Source: Polyangiaceae bacterium (GTDB lineage: Bacteria > Myxococcota_A > Polyangia > Polyangiales > Polyangiaceae). Taken from it: a stretch of DNA of 64,000 nt. A model generated the notes under the pieces. That model was not told the origin of the DNA, ran no database searches, and saw only the letters and a program-made list of their open reading frames with translations. Shown one piece after another: positions 14,573 to 26,178 of this stretch; position 1 is the first letter of the stretch; every line of letters begins with the position of its first letter. The position numbers and the translations under genes are program-made. The stretch lies in NCBI GenBank assembly GCA_947475525.1, contig CANJMI010000009.1, forward strand, positions 1 through 64,000, read 5' to 3'.

Positions 14573-15520
14573 GTGCGCCCCCCCGACTCTTCTTCGACCG
14601 AAAATAGCGTACTCGCTGACCTTTTCTCGCGGCGCCTGCTCGTCGTGACGGGCAAAGGCGGCACCGGAAAGACGACCATCGCGTCGGCCCTCGTCAGGCG
14701 CGCATCGGCCATGGGCAAACGCGTGATTGCGTGCGAAGTCGGCCGCGATGCTTCCTCCCCTTCACCGCTCCTCGGGCTTCTCGCGCCGGGGCGAGCCGCG
14801 AGCAACGAGCCGCAAACACTCGAAGGGACGATCGCTCATGTGGTCCTGCGCGGAGAGGACGGCGTGCGCGCATTCCTAAGGGAAACGCTGCCATTTAAGT
14901 TCATGGCCGAGCGTGCGCTCAAGGTAGACGCCGTGCGCCGCTTCATCGATGCGGCTCCAGCTTTCGCGGAAATGGGTGTTCTCTTTCGAGGCATGCAACT
15001 CCTCGACGAGAAGCGCCGCGACGGCTCGTCGGTGTACGACCTGATGGTTCTCGACGCACCCGCGAGCGGGCACACGTTGGCGTTCGCCTCCTTGCCCGAG
15101 ACGATCCTGAAGGTCTTCAGCATTGGACCCATCGCGACCGCGGCCCGCGCTGGCATCGAGCTCATTGGCAATCCACGCACGACGACGGTCGTCACTACGA
15201 CGTTGCCTGAAGCGCTGCCCGTCAGCGAAGCCGTTGAACTCTACGCGGGGCTTCGCCAACGCGGCCTCGACGTCGGCGCGATCGTCGCAAATCAACTGCC
15301 ACACGACCCGTTCACGCCGGCCGAGCGTGCGCTGCTCGACACCGTCCTGCCCCGCGAAGTGCTCGGTCGTCGCGCGCTCGTTCGAATCGCGAATGCCAAT
15401 GACGCCCTCGCGCGCTTGCGTTTGCTCGGCGCCCCGCTATTGGAAGTTCGGGCGCACGCCGCGAGCGGAGCCGCGTTGGTCGCTACGATCGAACAAGGCC
15501 TCGCCGGAGCCGCCGCATGA
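14573..15520 (+). CDS. ArsA/Get3-family ATPase (first of coupled pair)
   Basis: 315 residues from GTG. The deviant Walker A motif GKGGTGKTT is near residue 28, with a switch-like LMVLDAPASGHTLAF near 160, as in ArsA/Get3 (DTAPTGHTLR). The family couples ATP hydrolysis to arsenite extrusion (ArsA) or tail-anchored protein delivery (Get3). No arsenite Cys triad is obvious and no arsB is near. Its stop overlaps the start of a second, different ArsA-type ATPase, so the two probably form a heteromer. Such pairs are seen in Myxococcota and other bacteria without an assigned role as far as I know. Confidence 0.85.
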   Translation: MRPPDSSSTENSVLADLFSRRLLVVTGKGGTGKTTIASALVRRASAMGKRVIACEVGRDASSPSPLLGLLAPGRAASNEPQTLEGTIAHVVLRGEDGVRAFLRETLPFKFMAERALKVDAVRRFIDAAPAFAEMGVLFRGMQLLDEKRRDGSSVYDLMVLDAPASGHTLAFASLPETILKVFSIGPIATAARAGIELIGNPRTTTVVTTTLPEALPVSEAVELYAGLRQRGLDVGAIVANQLPHDPFTPAERALLDTVLPREVLGRRALVRIANANDALARLRLLGAPLLEVRAHAASGAALVATIEQGLAGAAA

Positions 15521-16662
15521 GCCCGAAAGACGCGACCGGAAGCCACGGTAACCCTGCACCGATGTCCCTCGGCGAGCTCGTGCGGCAAAAGCGCGTGCTC
15601 GTCTTGTGTGGACCTGGCGGCGTCGGCAAGACAACCACCTCGGCGGCTTTGGGGCTCGCGGGTGCGCAGGCAGGCCGACGTGTCCTCGTGCTCACGATCG
15701 ATCCGGCGCGACGCCTCGCAGACGCCCTCGGGCTCGCGCTCGCCTCACCTACGCCGCAGCCCGTTCCGGCAGATCGACTGCGTGCGTTGGGGCTCGACCT
15801 CGGTGAAGGCGGGACCGGCACGCTCGACGCGTGGATGCTCGATCCGAAGGTGGTCTTCGAGCGTGTGATCCGGGTACTCGGGACTCCCGAGCAGGCCGAT
15901 AAAATCCTCGCGACGAAGCTCTTCTCGCACCTGTCGGAGCTGGCCTCGGGGATGCTCGAGTACACCGCCGGCGAAGCGCTCTACGCCTTCGCTGCCGAGG
16001 GCCGCTACGACCTCATCGTCCTCGATACGCCCCCTTCCCGCAACGCACTCGATTTTCTCGATGCGCCCGAGCGACTCTCCGCGTTCCTCGAAGACAGCAT
16101 CCTCAAGGTGTTCATCCCGAAGGAGGGCTCACGGTTTATGGCCGGCGCGAGCCGGCTTGTCGGCAACGTCTTCGGGCGCGTATTCGGCGACGGCTTCATG
16201 ACGGATCTCAGCGTCTTTTTCCAAGCATTTGGCGGGCTTTTCGGCGGTATGCGCGCACACAGCGACGGCGTCGCCAAGCTGCTCGCATCGGATGCAAGCG
16301 CGTTCGTGCTCGTCACCTCTCCCGATGAGGACGCGCTCCGCGAGGCCGCGTTTTTTCAAAAAGAGCTCGCGCGCCGCAAGCTGCCGTTCGCAGGCTTCGT
16401 GTTGAATCGCTCGCTCGCAAAGTTCGCAGCGTGGCCGCACCCAAGTGAATTCGGCCACAAAGATCCCGCGGCGAGCCGAGCCATCGGGTTGCTGAACGCA
16501 TTCGCGAACGAGGAACGCGCCGAAGCCGAGAAGCACGACAGACAGCTCGCCGAGTTGCGCACGCTCGCCGGTGAACAGGCCATCGCGGTCGCCGCCCCGA
16601 TGTTGCTCGACACGAGCGACCCGCTCGCCGGCCTCGTCACGCTCGCACGCGAGCTTACCTGA
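15517..16662 (+). CDS. ArsA/Get3-family ATPase (second of coupled pair)
   Basis: 381 residues; the ATG overlaps the previous stop (ATGA). Walker A GPGGVGKTT is near residue 33, followed by VLTIDPARRLADALG, the usual block after the P-loop in this subgroup. Walker B-like YDLIVLDTPPSRNALDFLDAP is near 165-185. A hydrophobic Gly/Phe-rich stretch (residues 205-250, with F-G-R-V-F-G-D-G-F and F-G-G-L-F-G-G) could form the client-binding groove seen in Get3-like proteins; this is inference. It is longer than its partner by an insert and a C-terminal helix. Its last eight bases overlap the convergent ribonuclease gene. Confidence 0.87.
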   Translation: MSPKDATGSHGNPAPMSLGELVRQKRVLVLCGPGGVGKTTTSAALGLAGAQAGRRVLVLTIDPARRLADALGLALASPTPQPVPADRLRALGLDLGEGGTGTLDAWMLDPKVVFERVIRVLGTPEQADKILATKLFSHLSELASGMLEYTAGEALYAFAAEGRYDLIVLDTPPSRNALDFLDAPERLSAFLEDSILKVFIPKEGSRFMAGASRLVGNVFGRVFGDGFMTDLSVFFQAFGGLFGGMRAHSDGVAKLLASDASAFVLVTSPDEDALREAAFFQKELARRKLPFAGFVLNRSLAKFAAWPHPSEFGHKDPAASRAIGLLNAFANEERAEAEKHDRQLAELRTLAGEQAIAVAAPMLLDTSDPLAGLVTLARELT

Positions 16663-19529: not shown

Positions 19530-20708
19530 ATGGGCCTACGCGGCACGAAAGGTCCCCTTCAATTTTTGCTGAGCACACTCGGCATCGGGCTCCTCGCATG
19601 CTCGGGCGAGGGGGTCGCGCACCCGACGTTTCGGCCCGCAACCGAACGGCACTTCGAGCCAGTCGCGGTGGAACGCGCCTCACTTCCCGAAGTGTCAGCC
19701 ACGACCGCGGCCGCGCGGCGAGCCGCATGGACGTCCTGTCACAAGGACGCCCCGATGGTCGTCCTCGTCGCCCTCGACGGAGCGCGATGGCACGAGGTCT
19801 TCACCGGGGTCGAGTCAAAACGGGCAAAGGCTGCGGGGGTCCCGCGCGACACGAGTGCGGCGGAGCTGATGCCGAATCTCCATCGGATCATCCGCTCGGA
19901 AGGCGCGGCGCTCGGAGCCCCAGGCGTAGGCGAACCTATCTCCGCGAGCGGGCCGAACTACGTGTCCTTGCCGGGTTACATCGAGATGCTCTCGGGGCGC
20001 CACGAGACGGAGTGCACCTCGAACGAATGCGGCGTTTCTCGCTGGCGTTCGCTTCCGGACGACTTCGCGGTCTGCGGCGAAGCGGCGGTCGTCTCGTCAT
20101 GGCCGCCTATCGCTCGAGCTGTCGGCGCAAACGAAGCCGCGCTCGTGTCGGCTGGAAAGAGTGCCCTCCGTGGCACGCTGAAAGGCACTCGCGCGAACGC
20201 ACTTTTTGAGCAAGGCCAACGGGGCGCGCCCGAGCCCGGGTACGGCGACTACCGAGCGGACCAATACACCGCGCCGCTCGCGCTCGAGATCCTGCGGGAA
20301 ACACGACCATCGTTCCTGTTCGTCGGCCTCGGCGATACGGACGAACACGCGCACCACAATGATTATCCAGGCTACCTCGATGCGCTTCGAGCGGCCGATC
20401 GCACCATCGGCGAGATTGATGCCGTCCTCACCGAGCAAAGGCTGACGGGCCGCGAGACGTTGCTCCTCGTCACGAGCGATCACGGACGCTCACATAATTT
20501 TAGCGACCACGGCGACTCGAAAGAATCGGCGCGCGTCTGGCTCGTTGCGGCCGGTAGTCGCGTGTACGCTCGAGGCATGGTCGCCGCGCCCGAGCCTCGC
20601 TATCTGGCCGATCTCGCTCCATCGGTGCGCGCTGTCGCGGGACTCCCGCCAAGCCCTGACGAGCAGGGACGCGTGCTGAGCGAGCTCTTCGCGACCGAGG
20701 ACCTTTGA
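19530..20708 (+). CDS. Alkaline phosphatase/sulfatase-superfamily lipoprotein
   Basis: 392 residues from ATG 19530; GTG 19515 (adding K-K-R) and TTG 19506 are in frame and possible. The signal ends at GIGLLAC, a lipobox. Superfamily metal and nucleophile features: VALDGARWHEVF (metal Asp), SGPNYVSLPGYIEML (Thr/Ser nucleophile region), GDTDEHAHHNDY (Asp and His ligands), TSDHGRSH and DHGDSKESARVW (last ligands). It resembles type I phosphodiesterase/phosphonoacetate-hydrolase-like enzymes. Being lipid-anchored, it should act outside the inner membrane. Its stop overlaps the start of the DUF5690 gene (TTGA), so the two are translationally coupled. Confidence 0.83.
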   Translation: MGLRGTKGPLQFLLSTLGIGLLACSGEGVAHPTFRPATERHFEPVAVERASLPEVSATTAAARRAAWTSCHKDAPMVVLVALDGARWHEVFTGVESKRAKAAGVPRDTSAAELMPNLHRIIRSEGAALGAPGVGEPISASGPNYVSLPGYIEMLSGRHETECTSNECGVSRWRSLPDDFAVCGEAAVVSSWPPIARAVGANEAALVSAGKSALRGTLKGTRANALFEQGQRGAPEPGYGDYRADQYTAPLALEILRETRPSFLFVGLGDTDEHAHHNDYPGYLDALRAADRTIGEIDAVLTEQRLTGRETLLLVTSDHGRSHNFSDHGDSKESARVWLVAAGSRVYARGMVAAPEPRYLADLAPSVRAVAGLPPSPDEQGRVLSELFATEDL

Positions 20709-22039
20709 GCGAACGGACGGCACGGTGGCTCGGGCGTGCACCGGCCTCGCTCTTCACCGCCTATGCGTTATTCTCAGCATTTGGCGCCTATTTCTGTATG
20801 TACGGCTTCCGCAAGGCGTTCGCCGCGGCGAGCTACGCCGGGCAACTCGACCTCGGACCGCTCGGTCGCATCGACACGAAAGTCGCGCTGATCGTCGCGC
20901 AGATCGTCGGCTACTGCCTCTCCAAATTCATCGGCATCCGCGTGATAGCCGAGATGACCCGCGCCCGACGCGCACTCACTCTCGCTGCAGCGATCACGGC
21001 GGCGGAAGTGACCCTGATCGCGTTCGCCCTCGTCCCGCCGTCGCTCGCGCCGATCTGCCTCTTCTTGAATGGACTGCCACTCGGCCTGACGTGGGGCCTC
21101 GTCTTCGGCTCGCTTGAAGGACGCCGAACCTCGGACCTTCTCGGCGCAGGCTTGTGCGCAAGCTTCATCGTGGCGAGCGGCTTCGCGAAGAGCGTCGGCC
21201 TCTCTGTGCTCGGTTACGGGGTCAGCGAGGCTTGGATGCCCGCGGCGACCGGCGCACTTTTCCTCCTGCCGATGTTTCTCTTCGTCTGGATGCTCGCGCA
21301 GCTCCCTCCGCCGAGTGCCGAAGACGAAGCGCACCGGATGAAGCGCGAGCCGATGAGCGCCGCGGATCGAAGGGGGCTGCTGGCGCGCGCGGCACCTGGC
21401 CTCGTCTCGCTCGTCCTCGCGTACGTGCTTCTCACGACGTACCGTGATTTCCGGGATAATTTTGCACTCGAACTCTGGGGTGCGCTCGGCTTTTCGAACA
21501 CGCCCGCGCTCTTGACGACGACTGAACTCCCCGTCGCCTTCGGGGCGATCACCGCCGTTGGTTTGGTGATGATGGTTCGAGACAGCCGGCGCGCCCTCGC
21601 CGTCGTGCACGCGCTCATGGCCTTTGGTGGTGTGCTGATCGGCGCAAGCACGTTGCTCTTTCGGGGTGGCTTCATCGGCCCAGTCCCCTGGATGATCCTC
21701 GCCGGCGTTGGTCTCTACATCGGCTACGTGCCGTTCAATTGCGTCTTGTTCGACCGGTTGCTCCCGGCGCTGGGCGTGCGAGGCAACGCTGGGTTCCTCA
21801 TCTACGTCGCCGATTCGTTCGGCTACCTCGGCAGCGTCGCCCTGCTTTTTTACAAGAATTTTAGTGGCGCGCGTCTCTCGTGGGTCGAGTTCTTCGGGAG
21901 GTTCGGACTGGTCGTCGCCGCAAGCTCCATCGGACTCTTCGTAGTCTCGGGCGTGTACTTCGCGCGCGGCGTTACTGGCAGCGAACGACGGGAGCGAGCG
22001 GCGCAAGCTTGCGTGACTTCACCGGGGCGCAAGCGTTGA
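20705..22039 (+). CDS. DUF5690 family MFS-like membrane protein
   Basis: 444 residues from TTG overlapping the previous stop. About twelve hydrophobic segments. Highly conserved family blocks: F-G-A-Y-F-C-M-Y-G-F-R-K-A-F, Y-C-L-S-K-F-I-G-I-R-V, N-G-L-P-L-G-L-T-W-G-L-V-F, L-L-T-T-Y-R-D-F-R-D-N-F-A, Y-I-G-Y-V-P-F-N-C-V-L-F-D-R and G-N-A-G-F-L-I-Y-V-A-D-S-F-G-Y-L-G-S-V. These are typical of DUF5690, an uncharacterised MFS-related family best known from Bacteroidota. A transporter role is inferred. Coupling to a phosphatase-superfamily lipoprotein suggests it imports a product, perhaps a dephosphorylated or phosphonate compound. The last 68 bases overlap the convergent amidohydrolase gene. Confidence 0.88.
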   Translation: MSERTARWLGRAPASLFTAYALFSAFGAYFCMYGFRKAFAAASYAGQLDLGPLGRIDTKVALIVAQIVGYCLSKFIGIRVIAEMTRARRALTLAAAITAAEVTLIAFALVPPSLAPICLFLNGLPLGLTWGLVFGSLEGRRTSDLLGAGLCASFIVASGFAKSVGLSVLGYGVSEAWMPAATGALFLLPMFLFVWMLAQLPPPSAEDEAHRMKREPMSAADRRGLLARAAPGLVSLVLAYVLLTTYRDFRDNFALELWGALGFSNTPALLTTTELPVAFGAITAVGLVMMVRDSRRALAVVHALMAFGGVLIGASTLLFRGGFIGPVPWMILAGVGLYIGYVPFNCVLFDRLLPALGVRGNAGFLIYVADSFGYLGSVALLFYKNFSGARLSWVEFFGRFGLVVAASSIGLFVVSGVYFARGVTGSERRERAAQACVTSPGRKR

Positions 22040-23837
22040 CGGTGAGGCACTTGTACGGAGTCGCGCCGGACATCGAGACGTGAAAACAGTCTTCGCCTCC
22101 GGGGCAGCTTCCACCGCAATTCGACACGGCCGCCGTCGGCAGGTTCGATCGCACAAAGCAGCTCTCCGTGGCTTTGCACGCGGACCCGCAACTCGAGGCT
22201 GGCAGTTCCTTTATGCCATCGAGCGCGGCGAACGCATCCTCTAAGCCATCGTGAACGAGCGCAAACGTCTGCCCGGCCTTCGCGACCTCGGACTCGTTGG
22301 CGACGCAGACGAACTTCTCGACGCCGCAGATGTCGATGGCGTCACACCCTGGCGATGCCGGAGCTAGCACCTCGAAGGCCTTGTCACCGTAAAGCGCGAC
22401 GCCCGCGACCAGCACGAGCCGCACACTCGCCGGCGTCGCCGCGACGATGGTGGCGTAAGGCAAACTCGCACCGCCCCCGAACACGACCACGTCAGCCACC
22501 GCGCCTTGCTCGAGGAGCCCGACGCTGCCTGAGAGTCCGAGGGCAGCCGCCGCATTGGTGGTCACCATCTCGACGAGCTGTTTGTCCGTCAGCAACCCGC
22601 TAAAGTTCTTGTTCGACCAATCCCGCGCGAAACGCAGCTCATCGAGGATGTTTTGGCTGCCGCCCATCGACCAGTCGGGCGCGAGCGAAACTTGGACGCC
22701 CGCCGCGAGGGCCGCGGGGATGTCGGTGGTCTTGCCGTAAAGCGCGACGTTCGAGGCCGGTGACCACGTGAGCTTCATCTTCGCCGCGGCCATCTTCTCG
22801 AACTCTTGCGGGCCGAACGCGGTGCCGTGGGTCACGGTCGTACCCGGCGCGTAGAGGCAGCCCGGGGCGGAAGACACGTCGTAGAGGGTCGTGAACTCGG
22901 CGAGCGCCTTCTGGTTTACGCCTTCGCCAACGTGGATGAGGTACGCCGCGGTCTTTCCGGTGGCGAAGTTGGAGCAGACACTGTCCGCCGAGCTCTTCGA
23001 AGGTGGGAAGAGCGCAGAGGTCTGCACGGTGTCGGTGGCGAGGCCATTCTGCTCGACGTCGACAGGCCGGCTGAGGCCCGAGAAACACGCCGACGAGACG
23101 CCCGGGAGGCCAACGATACTCGTGGTCCCCGCGACGAGACCCTTCAGCGAGCCCCACTTGTGCAGCTCGCACTTCAGGCTGTTGTTCGTTCCCTCGTAAT
23201 CGAGTGGGCACCACACCGGCTTGCCCTGCGAAGCATCTTCGAGGCATTGCTTGTAGTCCAGCATCAGGCCGTACTCGGCCTCTTTCGGCCAGCGCGTGTG
23301 GTCCGTGTATTTGCAACCGAACGGAGTGCAAGCGCACGAGCCAACGGTGCAGTAAGGCGAGCCCGAACAATCGGCGTCGACCGAGCATGACGAAGGCAGA
23401 TGCGGCACCCAATCGTCGTTGTCGAAGACGTCGAAGAGGATGTGATTGTGCGTGTCGATGAGGCCAGGCGCGATCACACCGCCGGTCTCAAAAACGGGTA
23501 CGCCCGGATGCTGCGCCTCGCACTCGGTTCCCGGAGCGACGCAGGCGAGGAGCGGCCCGTCGATCATCACCTGGCCGTCGAACGCCTCACCCGGCGTGAC
23601 CACGTGCCCATGCAAAATGTAGGGTCCGGTAACCGCGCCGCCGCCGGGGCCGACGCCCGTGCTGGCCGGGGTGCCACCGCTCGGACCGGAGCTCGGACCG
23701 GAACTCGAACTCGAGCTCAAGCCGTCTGTCGTGGCGACAACGGGGCAACCGGATGCGAGTGCGAGGCAGGCGATGACGGCGGCGAGCGCCCAGTACGACT
23801 TCGTCACTCGGTGAAAGATAGCATGATCGCCGGACAT
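21972..23837 (-). CDS. Amidohydrolase-family lipoprotein with Cys-rich C-terminus
   Basis: 621 residues. The signal ends at L-A-S-G-C, then a Ser/Gly/Pro linker. From about residue 70 it is a cytosine-deaminase/imidazolonepropionase-like amidohydrolase: ILHGHVVTPGEAFDG, GLIDTHNHILFD (H-x-H metal pair), L-I-H-V-G-E-G-V-N, T-V-T-H-G-T-A-F-G, and S-L-A-P-D-W-S-M-G-G-S with the final metal Asp. An 8-Cys insert (residues 145-175) interrupts the barrel after the H-x-H. The last 120 residues are Cys-rich and beyond the enzyme fold. A GTG at 23807 would give a more typical lipoprotein signal. Secreted metal-dependent hydrolase; substrate unknown. Confidence 0.8.
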   Translation of the reverse strand: MSGDHAIFHRVTKSYWALAAVIACLALASGCPVVATTDGLSSSSSSGPSSGPSGGTPASTGVGPGGGAVTGPYILHGHVVTPGEAFDGQVMIDGPLLACVAPGTECEAQHPGVPVFETGGVIAPGLIDTHNHILFDVFDNDDWVPHLPSSCSVDADCSGSPYCTVGSCACTPFGCKYTDHTRWPKEAEYGLMLDYKQCLEDASQGKPVWCPLDYEGTNNSLKCELHKWGSLKGLVAGTTSIVGLPGVSSACFSGLSRPVDVEQNGLATDTVQTSALFPPSKSSADSVCSNFATGKTAAYLIHVGEGVNQKALAEFTTLYDVSSAPGCLYAPGTTVTHGTAFGPQEFEKMAAAKMKLTWSPASNVALYGKTTDIPAALAAGVQVSLAPDWSMGGSQNILDELRFARDWSNKNFSGLLTDKQLVEMVTTNAAAALGLSGSVGLLEQGAVADVVVFGGGASLPYATIVAATPASVRLVLVAGVALYGDKAFEVLAPASPGCDAIDICGVEKFVCVANESEVAKAGQTFALVHDGLEDAFAALDGIKELPASSCGSACKATESCFVRSNLPTAAVSNCGGSCPGGEDCFHVSMSGATPYKCLTVNACAPVKSRKLAPLAPVVRCQ

Positions 23838-23937
23838 GCAACGGGCACTGAACCCGAAGTTTCATTGGAGCGCGCACGCCACGCGGCGTCCGCAATCTTC
23901 TCGACAACCGCGAGCCCGATTCGCGACAATTGTGGCG

Positions 23938-24618
23938 ATGCGCCTTGCCGTCTTCGCTCCCATCGTGTGCGCCCTTGCCACCGCGTGCTCGACCGTTTTT
24001 GTCGAGGGCGGCCCACCGTCGGACGGGACGGGAGGAGGCGGAGGAAGCTCAACCAGTGGCAGTGGCAGTGGCGGCGCGATGTTCGCGGTCACGGCCGGGC
24101 CATCGGGCGTCGGCAGCGTCGCCTCGTCGAGCTCGGGCGCAGAGCCCATCACGTGCTCGTCGTGGGGAGAGGCGTGCACGGGTTGCATCGCGACGAGCTG
24201 CCCTGAGACGTGGTGCGCGTGCCAAGGCAACGCCGAGTGCTTCGCGCTCCTGCAATGCTCGGGAGGCTGCCAGGACTCGGACGGTTGTACCGAGAAGTGC
24301 ATGGCCTTGCATCCCGAAGGGATCGCCGACGTGCTCTTGGTCAGCGGCTGCGCCGGCACGGCGTGCGATGCCGTGTGCAAGTGGGGCTCGACCGATTTTG
24401 ATCCGTGCGGCGAGTGCGTGTTCAAAAGCTGCGCTTCGGAGACAAACGCGTGCTTCGGCGACCCCACGTGCTTCGCCCTTTGGAAATGTTTCGACGCGTG
24501 CGGGCCATCGAGCCTGAGCTGCCACCAGAGCTGCTACGTGAAGCACCCGGACGGCGTGACCAAGCTCGAGGTCTTGCTCACCTGCGCGAACTCGAGCTGC
24601 GAGAGCACCTGCAACTAA
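23938..24618 (+). CDS. Cys-rich lipoprotein
   Basis: 226 residues from ATG 23938 (the frame is open upstream without support). The lipobox is A-L-A-T-A-C near residue 17, followed by a Gly/Ser linker to about 70. The mature domain is two repeats of a Cys-rich motif (C-x2-C-x3-C-x4-C-A-C, then C-x3-L-x-C-x3-C, and again C-G-E-C-V-x-K-S-C), with about 24 cysteines probably forming disulfides. This double-repeat design is common in Polyangiales lipoproteins; no function is known. It is divergent from the amidohydrolase gene. Confidence 0.75.
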   Translation: MRLAVFAPIVCALATACSTVFVEGGPPSDGTGGGGGSSTSGSGSGGAMFAVTAGPSGVGSVASSSSGAEPITCSSWGEACTGCIATSCPETWCACQGNAECFALLQCSGGCQDSDGCTEKCMALHPEGIADVLLVSGCAGTACDAVCKWGSTDFDPCGECVFKSCASETNACFGDPTCFALWKCFDACGPSSLSCHQSCYVKHPDGVTKLEVLLTCANSSCESTCN

Positions 24619-24639: not shown

Positions 24640-26178
24640 TCAGCGTGCTGGACGACGAAAACGACGCGCGCGAAACTGGTGGTTCGACGGCCCGCCGCCG
24701 GACGCGCCTTCGGTGCTCACCATGACATTGCCTGCCGTTCCATTCGGTGCCGCGCCGTTCATCGCGGGCCCATTGGATGGCGCTCCGTTCGTCGCCTGTC
24801 CGTTCATGGCCGGCCTGTTGCCTTGCGGCCTGTCGCCTTGCGGCCGGTTGCCTTGGGGCCGGTTGCCTTGCGGCCGGTTGCCTTGCGGCCGGTTGCCTTG
24901 CGGCCTGTTGCCTTGCGGCCTGTTGCCTGGCGCTCCATGGGGGCTACGGGCATTCGACGGCGCGCTGGAAGAGGAACCGTAATCGGCGTCTTCACCGAGT
25001 ACCGGCACCCGGTCGCGCAGCAATCTCTCGATGTCTCGCAAGAACGCCCGCTCCTCACGATCGCAGAGCGAGACCGCGCGTCCGGTGGCGCCCGCACGGC
25101 CGGTGCGCCCGATGCGATGCACGTAGCTCTCGGGGATGTTGGGGATCTCGTAGTTCACCACGAGCGAGACCCCATCGACGTCGATGCCGCGGGCCGCGAG
25201 GTCGGTCGCGACGAGCACCCGCAGCGTCCCCGCGCGAAATCCGCCGAGCGCCCGATCGCGTGCGCCTTGCGATTTGTTGCCGTGAATCGCGGCCGCCGCA
25301 TAGCCGGAGTCCACGAGCTGCTCGGCGAGGCGATTCGCGCCGTGCTTGGTGCGGGTGAACACGATCACACGCGAGTCTTTTCCTTCGTTTAGGATCGTCT
25401 CGAGGCGCGCGCGCTTGTTGGCTTTCTCGACGAAGAAAACGCCATGGCTCACGGTCTCGGCCGTGGTCGCCTCCGGCGTGACGCTGACCTTGATAGGATC
25501 GCGGACCATGTCGGCGGCGAGCTGTACGATCGGCGGCGCCATGGTCGCGGAGAAGAAGAGCGTCTGTCGGTCGCGCGAGAGCCTGGCGAGGATGCGGCGC
25601 ACGTCGTGGATGAAGCCCATGTCGAGCATGCGGTCCGCCTCGTCGAGGACGAGGTAGATCACGCCGTCGAGGCGCAGCACGCGCTGCTCGACGAGATCGA
25701 GCAATCGGCCCGGGGTGGCGATCAGCATGTCGGGCCTGCGGGTGAGCTCGACCTCCTGGTTTCGCTGGCTCACGCCGCCATAGATCACCGCGTGTCGAAT
25801 GGTCTCGCCCCGAGCCCCGCGGATGTACTTGCCGTAGGCGGTGACGCGCTCGCCGATTTGCGCTGCGAGCTCGCGGGTCGGCGTGACGACGAGCGCCCGG
25901 ACGAGGCCCGTAGGCCGGCCCGCGACGAGATGCTGCAACAGCGGCAACACGAACGCAGCGGTCTTGCCGGTTCCGGTCTGCGCGCAACCGAGGATGTCGC
26001 GCCCATCGAGCGCGCAAGGGATCGCCTGCGTCTGAATCGGCGTAGGTGTCGTGTAGCCTTCTTCAACGAGCGCGCGAACGAGCGGTGCCGAGATCCCGAG
26101 GTCCGCGAAAGCGGCGCCTGGAACGGGAATGGAAACGGACGAAGAAGGGGAAGAAGCAGGAGCAGAAGGAAGGTGCAT
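24640..26178 (-). CDS. DEAD-box ATP-dependent RNA helicase (RhlE-like) with repetitive tail
   Basis: 512 residues; GAAAGA lies upstream of the ATG. All helicase motifs are present: Q-motif (F-A-D-L-G-I-S with T-P-T-P-I-Q), AQTGTGKT, PTRELA, VLDEADRMLDMGF, FFSAT, and HRIGRTGRAG, residues 20-380. The order and sequence fit the RhlE subgroup, which unwinds RNA in ribosome assembly and RNA decay. The last 110 residues are a disordered tail: about seven RPQGN units, then N-G/A-P-rich repeats, ending in Arg-rich R-A-R-R-F-R-R-P, a likely RNA-binding end. The tail repeat is the coding version of the tandem repeat listed separately. Confidence 0.95.
   Translation of the reverse strand: MHLPSAPASSPSSSVSIPVPGAAFADLGISAPLVRALVEEGYTTPTPIQTQAIPCALDGRDILGCAQTGTGKTAAFVLPLLQHLVAGRPTGLVRALVVTPTRELAAQIGERVTAYGKYIRGARGETIRHAVIYGGVSQRNQEVELTRRPDMLIATPGRLLDLVEQRVLRLDGVIYLVLDEADRMLDMGFIHDVRRILARLSRDRQTLFFSATMAPPIVQLAADMVRDPIKVSVTPEATTAETVSHGVFFVEKANKRARLETILNEGKDSRVIVFTRTKHGANRLAEQLVDSGYAAAAIHGNKSQGARDRALGGFRAGTLRVLVATDLAARGIDVDGVSLVVNYEIPNIPESYVHRIGRTGRAGATGRAVSLCDREERAFLRDIERLLRDRVPVLGEDADYGSSSSAPSNARSPHGAPGNRPQGNRPQGNRPQGNRPQGNRPQGNRPQGDRPQGNRPAMNGQATNGAPSNGPAMNGAAPNGTAGNVMVSTEGASGGGPSNHQFRARRFRRPAR
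24811..24928 (-). repeat. 15-bp tandem repeat in the helicase gene (RPQGN codons)
   Basis: About seven units of 15 bases (core TTGCCTTGCGGCCGG on the + strand) with few substitutions encode Arg-Pro-Gln-Gly-Asn. Unit length keeps the frame, so copy number can vary without loss of function. Confidence 0.9.

Follow-up and report, generated by a model that had tools for sequence, protein, structure and literature searches.

A gene for a predicted phosphatase-superfamily lipoprotein overlapping a gene for a probable DUF5690 transporter in a Polyangiaceae bacterium, and the phosphonate-gene context of DUF5690 in Bacteroidota

We analysed 64,000 nucleotides of contig CANJMI010000009.1 (assembly GCA_947475525.1) of a Polyangiaceae bacterium, hereafter the window, in which two genes overlap on the forward strand. 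The first (19530..20708) encodes a predicted exported hydrolase, a lipoprotein of 392 amino acids from the alkaline phosphatase superfamily, and the second (20705..22039) a predicted transporter of 444 amino acids from the DUF5690 family, a divergent relative of the organophosphate:phosphate antiporters (OPA). The best explanation of the pair, to which we give a probability of about 0.55, is a two-gene nutrient-scavenging unit working like GlpQ with GlpT, through which a small phosphonate or phosphate ester would be imported. Relatives in other bacteria suggest that DUF5690-type transporters import phosphonates, nutrients in which phosphorus is bonded directly to carbon. The analysis establishes the gene pair itself, the conserved catalytic residues of the hydrolase, a distant kinship of DUF5690 with the antiporters in which the basic residues are kept, and a phosphonate neighbourhood of DUF5690 in Bacteroidota.

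In the proposed mechanism, the two proteins would act in sequence. The phosphatase, probably exported and lipid-anchored, would act outside the cytoplasm, hydrolysing an ester of phosphate or phosphonate, and DUF5690 would take up the small phosphonate or phosphate ester thus freed, probably by antiport with inorganic phosphate. For Bacteroidota the most likely cargo would be 2-aminoethylphosphonate or a close relative, and a molecule of the same class would be likely in the window species. The initial annotation had proposed surface hydrolysis followed by uptake of the product; the idea survives in a more specific form, with an antiporter-like DUF5690 and an aminophosphonate-gene context in Bacteroidota, while surface location, substrate and transport stay inferred.

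The stop of the phosphatase gene (TGA, 20706-20708) and the start of the DUF5690 gene (TTG, 20705-20707) combine into TTGA (20705..20708), as had been read in the initial annotation and as the window sequence bears out. An overlap of the TTGA or ATGA type is ordinary as such. The 5.15 Mb genome carries a single DUF5690 gene, and the phosphatase subfamily, too, has one full-length member there (the runner-up match reaches only 20.7 bits); since each is single-copy, adjacency on the same strand is hardly chance in itself. The recurrence of both families as a pair in Bacteroidota is a stronger argument than adjacency in the window.

In seven Bacteroidota loci, the gene immediately preceding DUF5690 on its strand is a phosphatase homologue (22-25% identical), and in four of them (L106, L107, L117 and L118) the stop codon of the one runs into the start codon of the other as TAATG; in L085 and L090 the homologue lies near DUF5690. 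Among 50 genomes with DUF5690 (the first 50 of 78 loci), a full-length phosphatase homologue (E < 1e-100) was found in 21 of the 32 Bacteroidota and in none of the 18 others. We also searched 395 evenly sampled Bacteroidota genomes for both families at E up to 1e-40 and found DUF5690 in 42 and the phosphatase family in 53. The two occur together in 24 genomes (5.6 expected) and within 15 kb of each other in 14 of these 24 (0.16 expected), nine of the 14 on one strand; shared ancestry inflates these counts, and the hypergeometric and binomial figures ignore kinship and overstate significance.

What genes does DUF5690 keep company with? We named 80 DUF5690 loci, the best 80 of 264, a selection that leans to close relatives of the window protein; loci were counted by six-frame phmmer and phosphonate-catabolism homologues at a score of at least 50 bits. 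Thirty-two of the 80 loci are from Bacteroidota and 28 of these carry such a homologue, the others being L070, L119, L128 and L129 (the contig of L119 ends just past DUF5690). A Flavobacterium composite of L106 and L107 starts with SusC, SusD, a phosphodiesterase with PA14, PbfA (718 bits) and the phosphatase homologue, followed by DUF5690, TIGR03364 (426 bits), the PhnX-like TIGR03351 (223 bits, over cut-off) and a helix-turn-helix-cupin regulator; proteins of these two loci exceed the NCBIfam cut-offs for PbfA, TIGR03364 and TIGR03351. Enzymes of the TIGR03364 type depend on flavin adenine dinucleotide (FAD). In such clusters, the FAD-dependent amine oxidoreductases PbfB, PbfC and PbfD are described as having an ancillary role (PMC12366243). 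Annotated plasmid records tell a similar story, with DUF5690, phnX and phnW in Parabacteroides and Bacteroides, and DUF5690, a TIGR03364 oxidoreductase and phosphonoacetaldehyde hydrolase in Novosphingobium. In all likelihood, a phosphonate is the substrate of the DUF5690 loci in Bacteroidota. A cluster of Hymenobacter sp. NBH84 joins a phosphatase homologue to a phosphonate-degradation HD-domain oxygenase, TIGR03364, SusC and SusD; a search of that region gave no DUF5690, and the transporter of the Hymenobacter phosphonate cluster, in DUF5690's stead, is a GlpT relative (26%, 2e-30).

Sus-type loci mixing SusC/SusD, phosphonate-catabolism genes, exported phosphoesterases and DUF5690 in varying order were seen in L106, L107 and L206-L211, and L206 additionally has PbfA and a purple-acid-phosphatase-like gene. 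Among the papers searched, which exclude most subscription titles, none was found that joins phosphonate use to SusC/SusD, Bacteroidetes N-glycans or flavobacterial polysaccharide utilization.

The DUF5690 protein matches PF18943 at 2.4e-144 over profile positions 2-381 of 382, and its AlphaFold model is confident (predicted local distance difference test, pLDDT, 93.7). The first 16 rows of a Foldseek search with this model were the glucose-6-phosphate exchanger SLC37A4 (14 rows) and sialin (two rows), with E. coli GlpT at rank 20. By VIA-align, SLC37A4 was again best (Z 35.2, root mean square deviation 3.2, 363 residues, 20% identity). Transporters of unrelated families came within 3 Z units of it (Z 30-32.5, 10-14% identity), so fold by itself cannot settle the family of DUF5690. 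A comparison of profiles, 49 DUF5690 sequences against GlpT, UhpT, UhpC and an AepP-like protein of Hymenobacter, gave Prob 94.8 and E 5.4e-8 over 356 columns, and the control against three E. coli sugar-acid transporters gave Prob 0.6 and E 0.089. In the profile alignment, three sites invariant in the 49 sequences face basic residues of GlpT: R36-K37 (codons 20810..20815) aligns with R45-K46, K74 in Y-x-x-S-K-F (20924..20926) with K80, and R247 (21443..21445) with R269, R247 lying four residues off R269 in the weaker alignment made without the AepP-like protein. We take R45, K80 and R269 of GlpT to bind the phosphate group. DUF5690 thus has the profile kinship, the basic residues and the nearest fold of the OPA family, within the major facilitator superfamily, and is very probably an antiporter-type transporter. 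Searches of PDB sequences with the single sequence and with the profile found nothing, and no literature on DUF5690 by name was found in a search outside which most subscription papers lie.

How close is the pair to known systems? In E. coli, glpT, for a glycerol-3-phosphate:Pi antiporter, adjoins glpQ, for a periplasmic glycerophosphodiesterase. The arrangement resembles the window pair, a phosphodiester hydrolase gene standing beside one for an organophosphate antiporter, and GlpT shares the fold and basic residues of DUF5690; however, the window hydrolase belongs to another superfamily and is a lipoprotein instead of a soluble protein, and the window transporter is highly divergent. AepP, the 2-aminoethylphosphonate permease of Pseudomonas putida BIRD-1, is a GlpT relative encoded next to phosphonate-catabolism genes (PMC8316502), a setting that fits what we propose DUF5690 does in Bacteroidota. 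The same paper says, in general terms, that AepP keeps the phosphate-binding residues of GlpT, and puts it at 27.75% identity to GlpT (PMC8316502), whereas DUF5690, compared with AepP via GlpT only, is far more distant. SLC37A4 is the best structural match of the DUF5690 model, but it is a human protein with glucose-6-phosphate as its substrate.

The phosphatase matches PF01663 (Phosphodiest, 8.2e-8) and PF01676 (Metalloenzyme, 2.6e-7), both over the Pfam cut-off, and scores under it for PF00884 (Sulfatase) and PF00245. Its N-terminus, MGLRGTKGPLQFLLSTLGIGLLAC|SGEG, is a predicted lipoprotein signal peptide (19530..19601) with lipobox L-L-A-C and Cys24 (codon 19599-19601). The lipobox pattern is present in seven of 14 Myxococcota phosphatase sequences scanned, that of the window included; the N-termini of Bacteroidota homologues resemble, by eye, ordinary signal peptides ending in A-Q-A-Q or similar. 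In a full-length alignment with 19 homologues, the residues expected of the superfamily are unchanged in all 20 sequences: D83 (19776..19778), S146 in S-L-P-G-Y (19965..19967), D271 and H275 in D-x-x-x-H (20340..20354), and D317-H318 and H327 (20478..20510). From superfamily knowledge we take D83 to be a metal ligand and S146 the nucleophile, and the remaining five are likewise predicted metal ligands. The structure model is of low confidence (pLDDT 58.7), so its matches to PafA (Z 17.1) and phosphonoacetate hydrolase (Z 14.9) are read at superfamily level alone; the best matches among PDB sequences span the C-terminal part only (2.7e-7, phosphoglycerate mutase). Pfam families, catalytic residues and the fold of this low-confidence model are those of nucleotide pyrophosphatase/phosphodiesterase, PafA and phosphonoacetate hydrolase, from which the window protein differs as a separate subfamily with S-x-P-G-Y.

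Two more specific identities were discarded. Type I sulfatases carry the signature C/S-x-P-x-R; the window protein has S-L-P-G-Y and scores 20 bits for PF00884 against a cut-off of 25. The phosphonoacetate hydrolase PhnA is out as well, TIGR02335 not being among the seven NCBIfam matches at E up to 1.

Several results weigh against a two-gene scavenging unit, beyond the kinship that inflates the counts above. When the AepP-like protein is left out, the profile match becomes weak (Prob 26.7, E 7e-4, 252 columns), and BLASTP of DUF5690 gave no significant match with GlpT and none with the Hymenobacter AepP-like protein. Of the 14 nearby pairs found in the Bacteroidota sample, just one lies within 300 bp, and five are on opposite strands. 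Further, 29 genomes have the phosphatase with no DUF5690 match. In 20 such regions examined, we found no phosphonate gene besides PhnW-like matches of 83 and 95 bits in two; SusC and SusD were present in three. Phosphatase homologues without DUF5690 thus occur in other contexts, some near housekeeping genes, and membership of this enzyme family does not by itself point to phosphonates. In Persicobacter (L144:2748-10535), a phosphatase homologue lies between a glycoside hydrolase family 2 enzyme and a beta-N-acetylhexosaminidase, next to alpha-L-fucosidases, a setting that hints at a glycan bearing phosphoryl or phosphonyl groups.

Further points of this kind concern the window genome and DUF5690 outside Bacteroidota, and bear on the possibility that the target of scavenging is not a phosphonate but an ordinary phosphate ester, namely phosphoethanolamine, glycerol phosphate or a sugar phosphate, the phosphonate link being a Bacteroidota specialisation. 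This account we consider tenable, if on the doubtful side, and it agrees with glucose-6-phosphate exchangers being the nearest structures. In the window genome, which is 98.9% complete, PhnX (39 bits against a cut-off of 220), PhnW (E 1.8e-4), TIGR03364 (61 bits against 285), and PhnJ and PhnA (no match at 1e-10) all stay under threshold, PbfA and PhnY not having been searched for. As positive controls, PhnJ was found in E. coli, PhnA in two relatives and TIGR03364 over cut-off in one relative; PhnX and PhnW exceeded their cut-offs in no control genome, and a PhnZ search matched none. As none of these catabolic enzymes was found, the aminoethylphosphonate function is not carried over to the window species. 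In that species, either the substrate would be a phosphate ester, or a phosphonate would serve as a building block or be used via some uncharacterised pathway. We see the odds of a phosphonate substrate there as even.

Of the 48 named DUF5690 loci outside Bacteroidota, 43 are without phosphonate genes. The five with them are L059, L062 and L080, with PhnW and PhnX, and L075 and L076, with a PhnX homologue about 3 kb off. Against an ordinary phosphate ester, the first three place DUF5690 beside PhnW and PhnX within the very Myxococcota group of the tree that includes the window. (L056, a metagenome-assembled genome titled Klebsiella pneumoniae, also falls among Myxococcota on the tree and is probably a mislabelled bin.) Pfam and NCBIfam searches of 91 of the 104 immediate neighbours in 54 non-Bacteroidota loci (13 omitted, mostly short open reading frames) revealed no dominant partner, TAtT being the commonest (6 of 91), with one match to PhnW and one to TIGR03366, a putative phosphonate-associated alcohol dehydrogenase. 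The latter is probably the zinc alcohol dehydrogenase directly past DUF5690 in Planctomycetota L116:7019-8107.

Are the two genes neighbours by chance? A generic exported phosphatase could lie beside a DUF5690 gene working alone in this lineage, the overlap being ordinary gene packing. We find this unlikely, although the window genus lends it some support. Past DUF5690, and outside the proposed unit, lie a convergent amidohydrolase gene (21972..23837, reverse strand; PF01979, 7.6e-20) and a gene for a cysteine-rich protein with no Pfam match (23836-24618, forward strand), which mark a neighbourhood common within the genus: in G004 and G002, DUF5690 adjoins homologues of both (amidohydrolase 33% and 27%, cysteine-rich 51% and 50%) in a different order and with no phosphatase. 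G001 has DUF5690 without the phosphatase, and G003 the phosphatase (52%) without DUF5690. With genus genomes holding DUF5690 alone, the phosphatase looks like a local addition in the window lineage. Moreover, no pattern emerged around 13 Myxococcota phosphatase homologues: 45 of their 48 neighbours were scanned, and the commonest match, Peptidase_M23, came up in 3 of the 45. Chance, however, does not readily account for the pairing of the same two families in the same order, sometimes with overlapping codons, in Bacteroidota, nor for the three genomes that hold both families among 59 genomes of window relatives (its own included): the window's own (G000), with the overlap; G012, with 9.6 kb between them on a single contig and one TGA in the phosphatase frame; and G028, whose DUF5690 is a fragment at a contig end.

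The window phosphatase is closer to 10 Myxococcota homologues (38-51% identity) than to nine from Bacteroidota (22-25%), and on these sequence identities the pairing probably arose more than once. Gene-neighbour statistics, which the initial annotation had put forward as a check, give a divided answer: DUF5690 does have a recurrent functional neighbourhood and its pairing with the phosphatase recurs in Bacteroidota, but the phosphatase is in none of the 48 named loci elsewhere, and the pairing is seen in one species of the window genus, in one of the four genomes with DUF5690.

Very improbable is a third account, in which DUF5690 would be a sensor regulating the phosphatase instead of a transporter: UhpC, annotated as a glucose-6-phosphate sensor, is in the same antiporter family, but the 10 proteins scanned from L106, L107, L113 and L130 include catabolic enzymes and SusC/SusD, no UhpBA-like signalling partner and no other transporter.

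Elsewhere in the window, two adjacent genes for ArsA-like ATPases with overlapping ends (14573-15520 and 15517-16662, forward strand) were recognised, the first by PF02374 (1.1e-14) and the second by eye. A DEAD-box helicase (24640-26178, reverse strand; PF00270, 3.7e-48) has a C-terminal tail of NRPQG repeats.

Returning to the scavenging unit, we tentatively extend it, at rather less than even confidence for the proposal as a whole, to an unreported class of phosphonate-conjugate utilisation loci of which DUF5690 would be the inner-membrane importer. Bacteroidota would take phosphonylated lipids or glycans via SusC/SusD, exported enzymes of the alkaline phosphatase superfamily would strip off the aminophosphonate and DUF5690 would import it, and the window lineage would have put together the same hydrolase-transporter pair independently. 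DUF5690, a widespread family without a function, now has a proposed and testable one. In Bacteroidota it likely provides a way of taking up phosphonates that could escape surveys of AepP, AepX or PhnD, and the results suggest that Sus-type systems may tap phosphonates attached to lipids or glycans.

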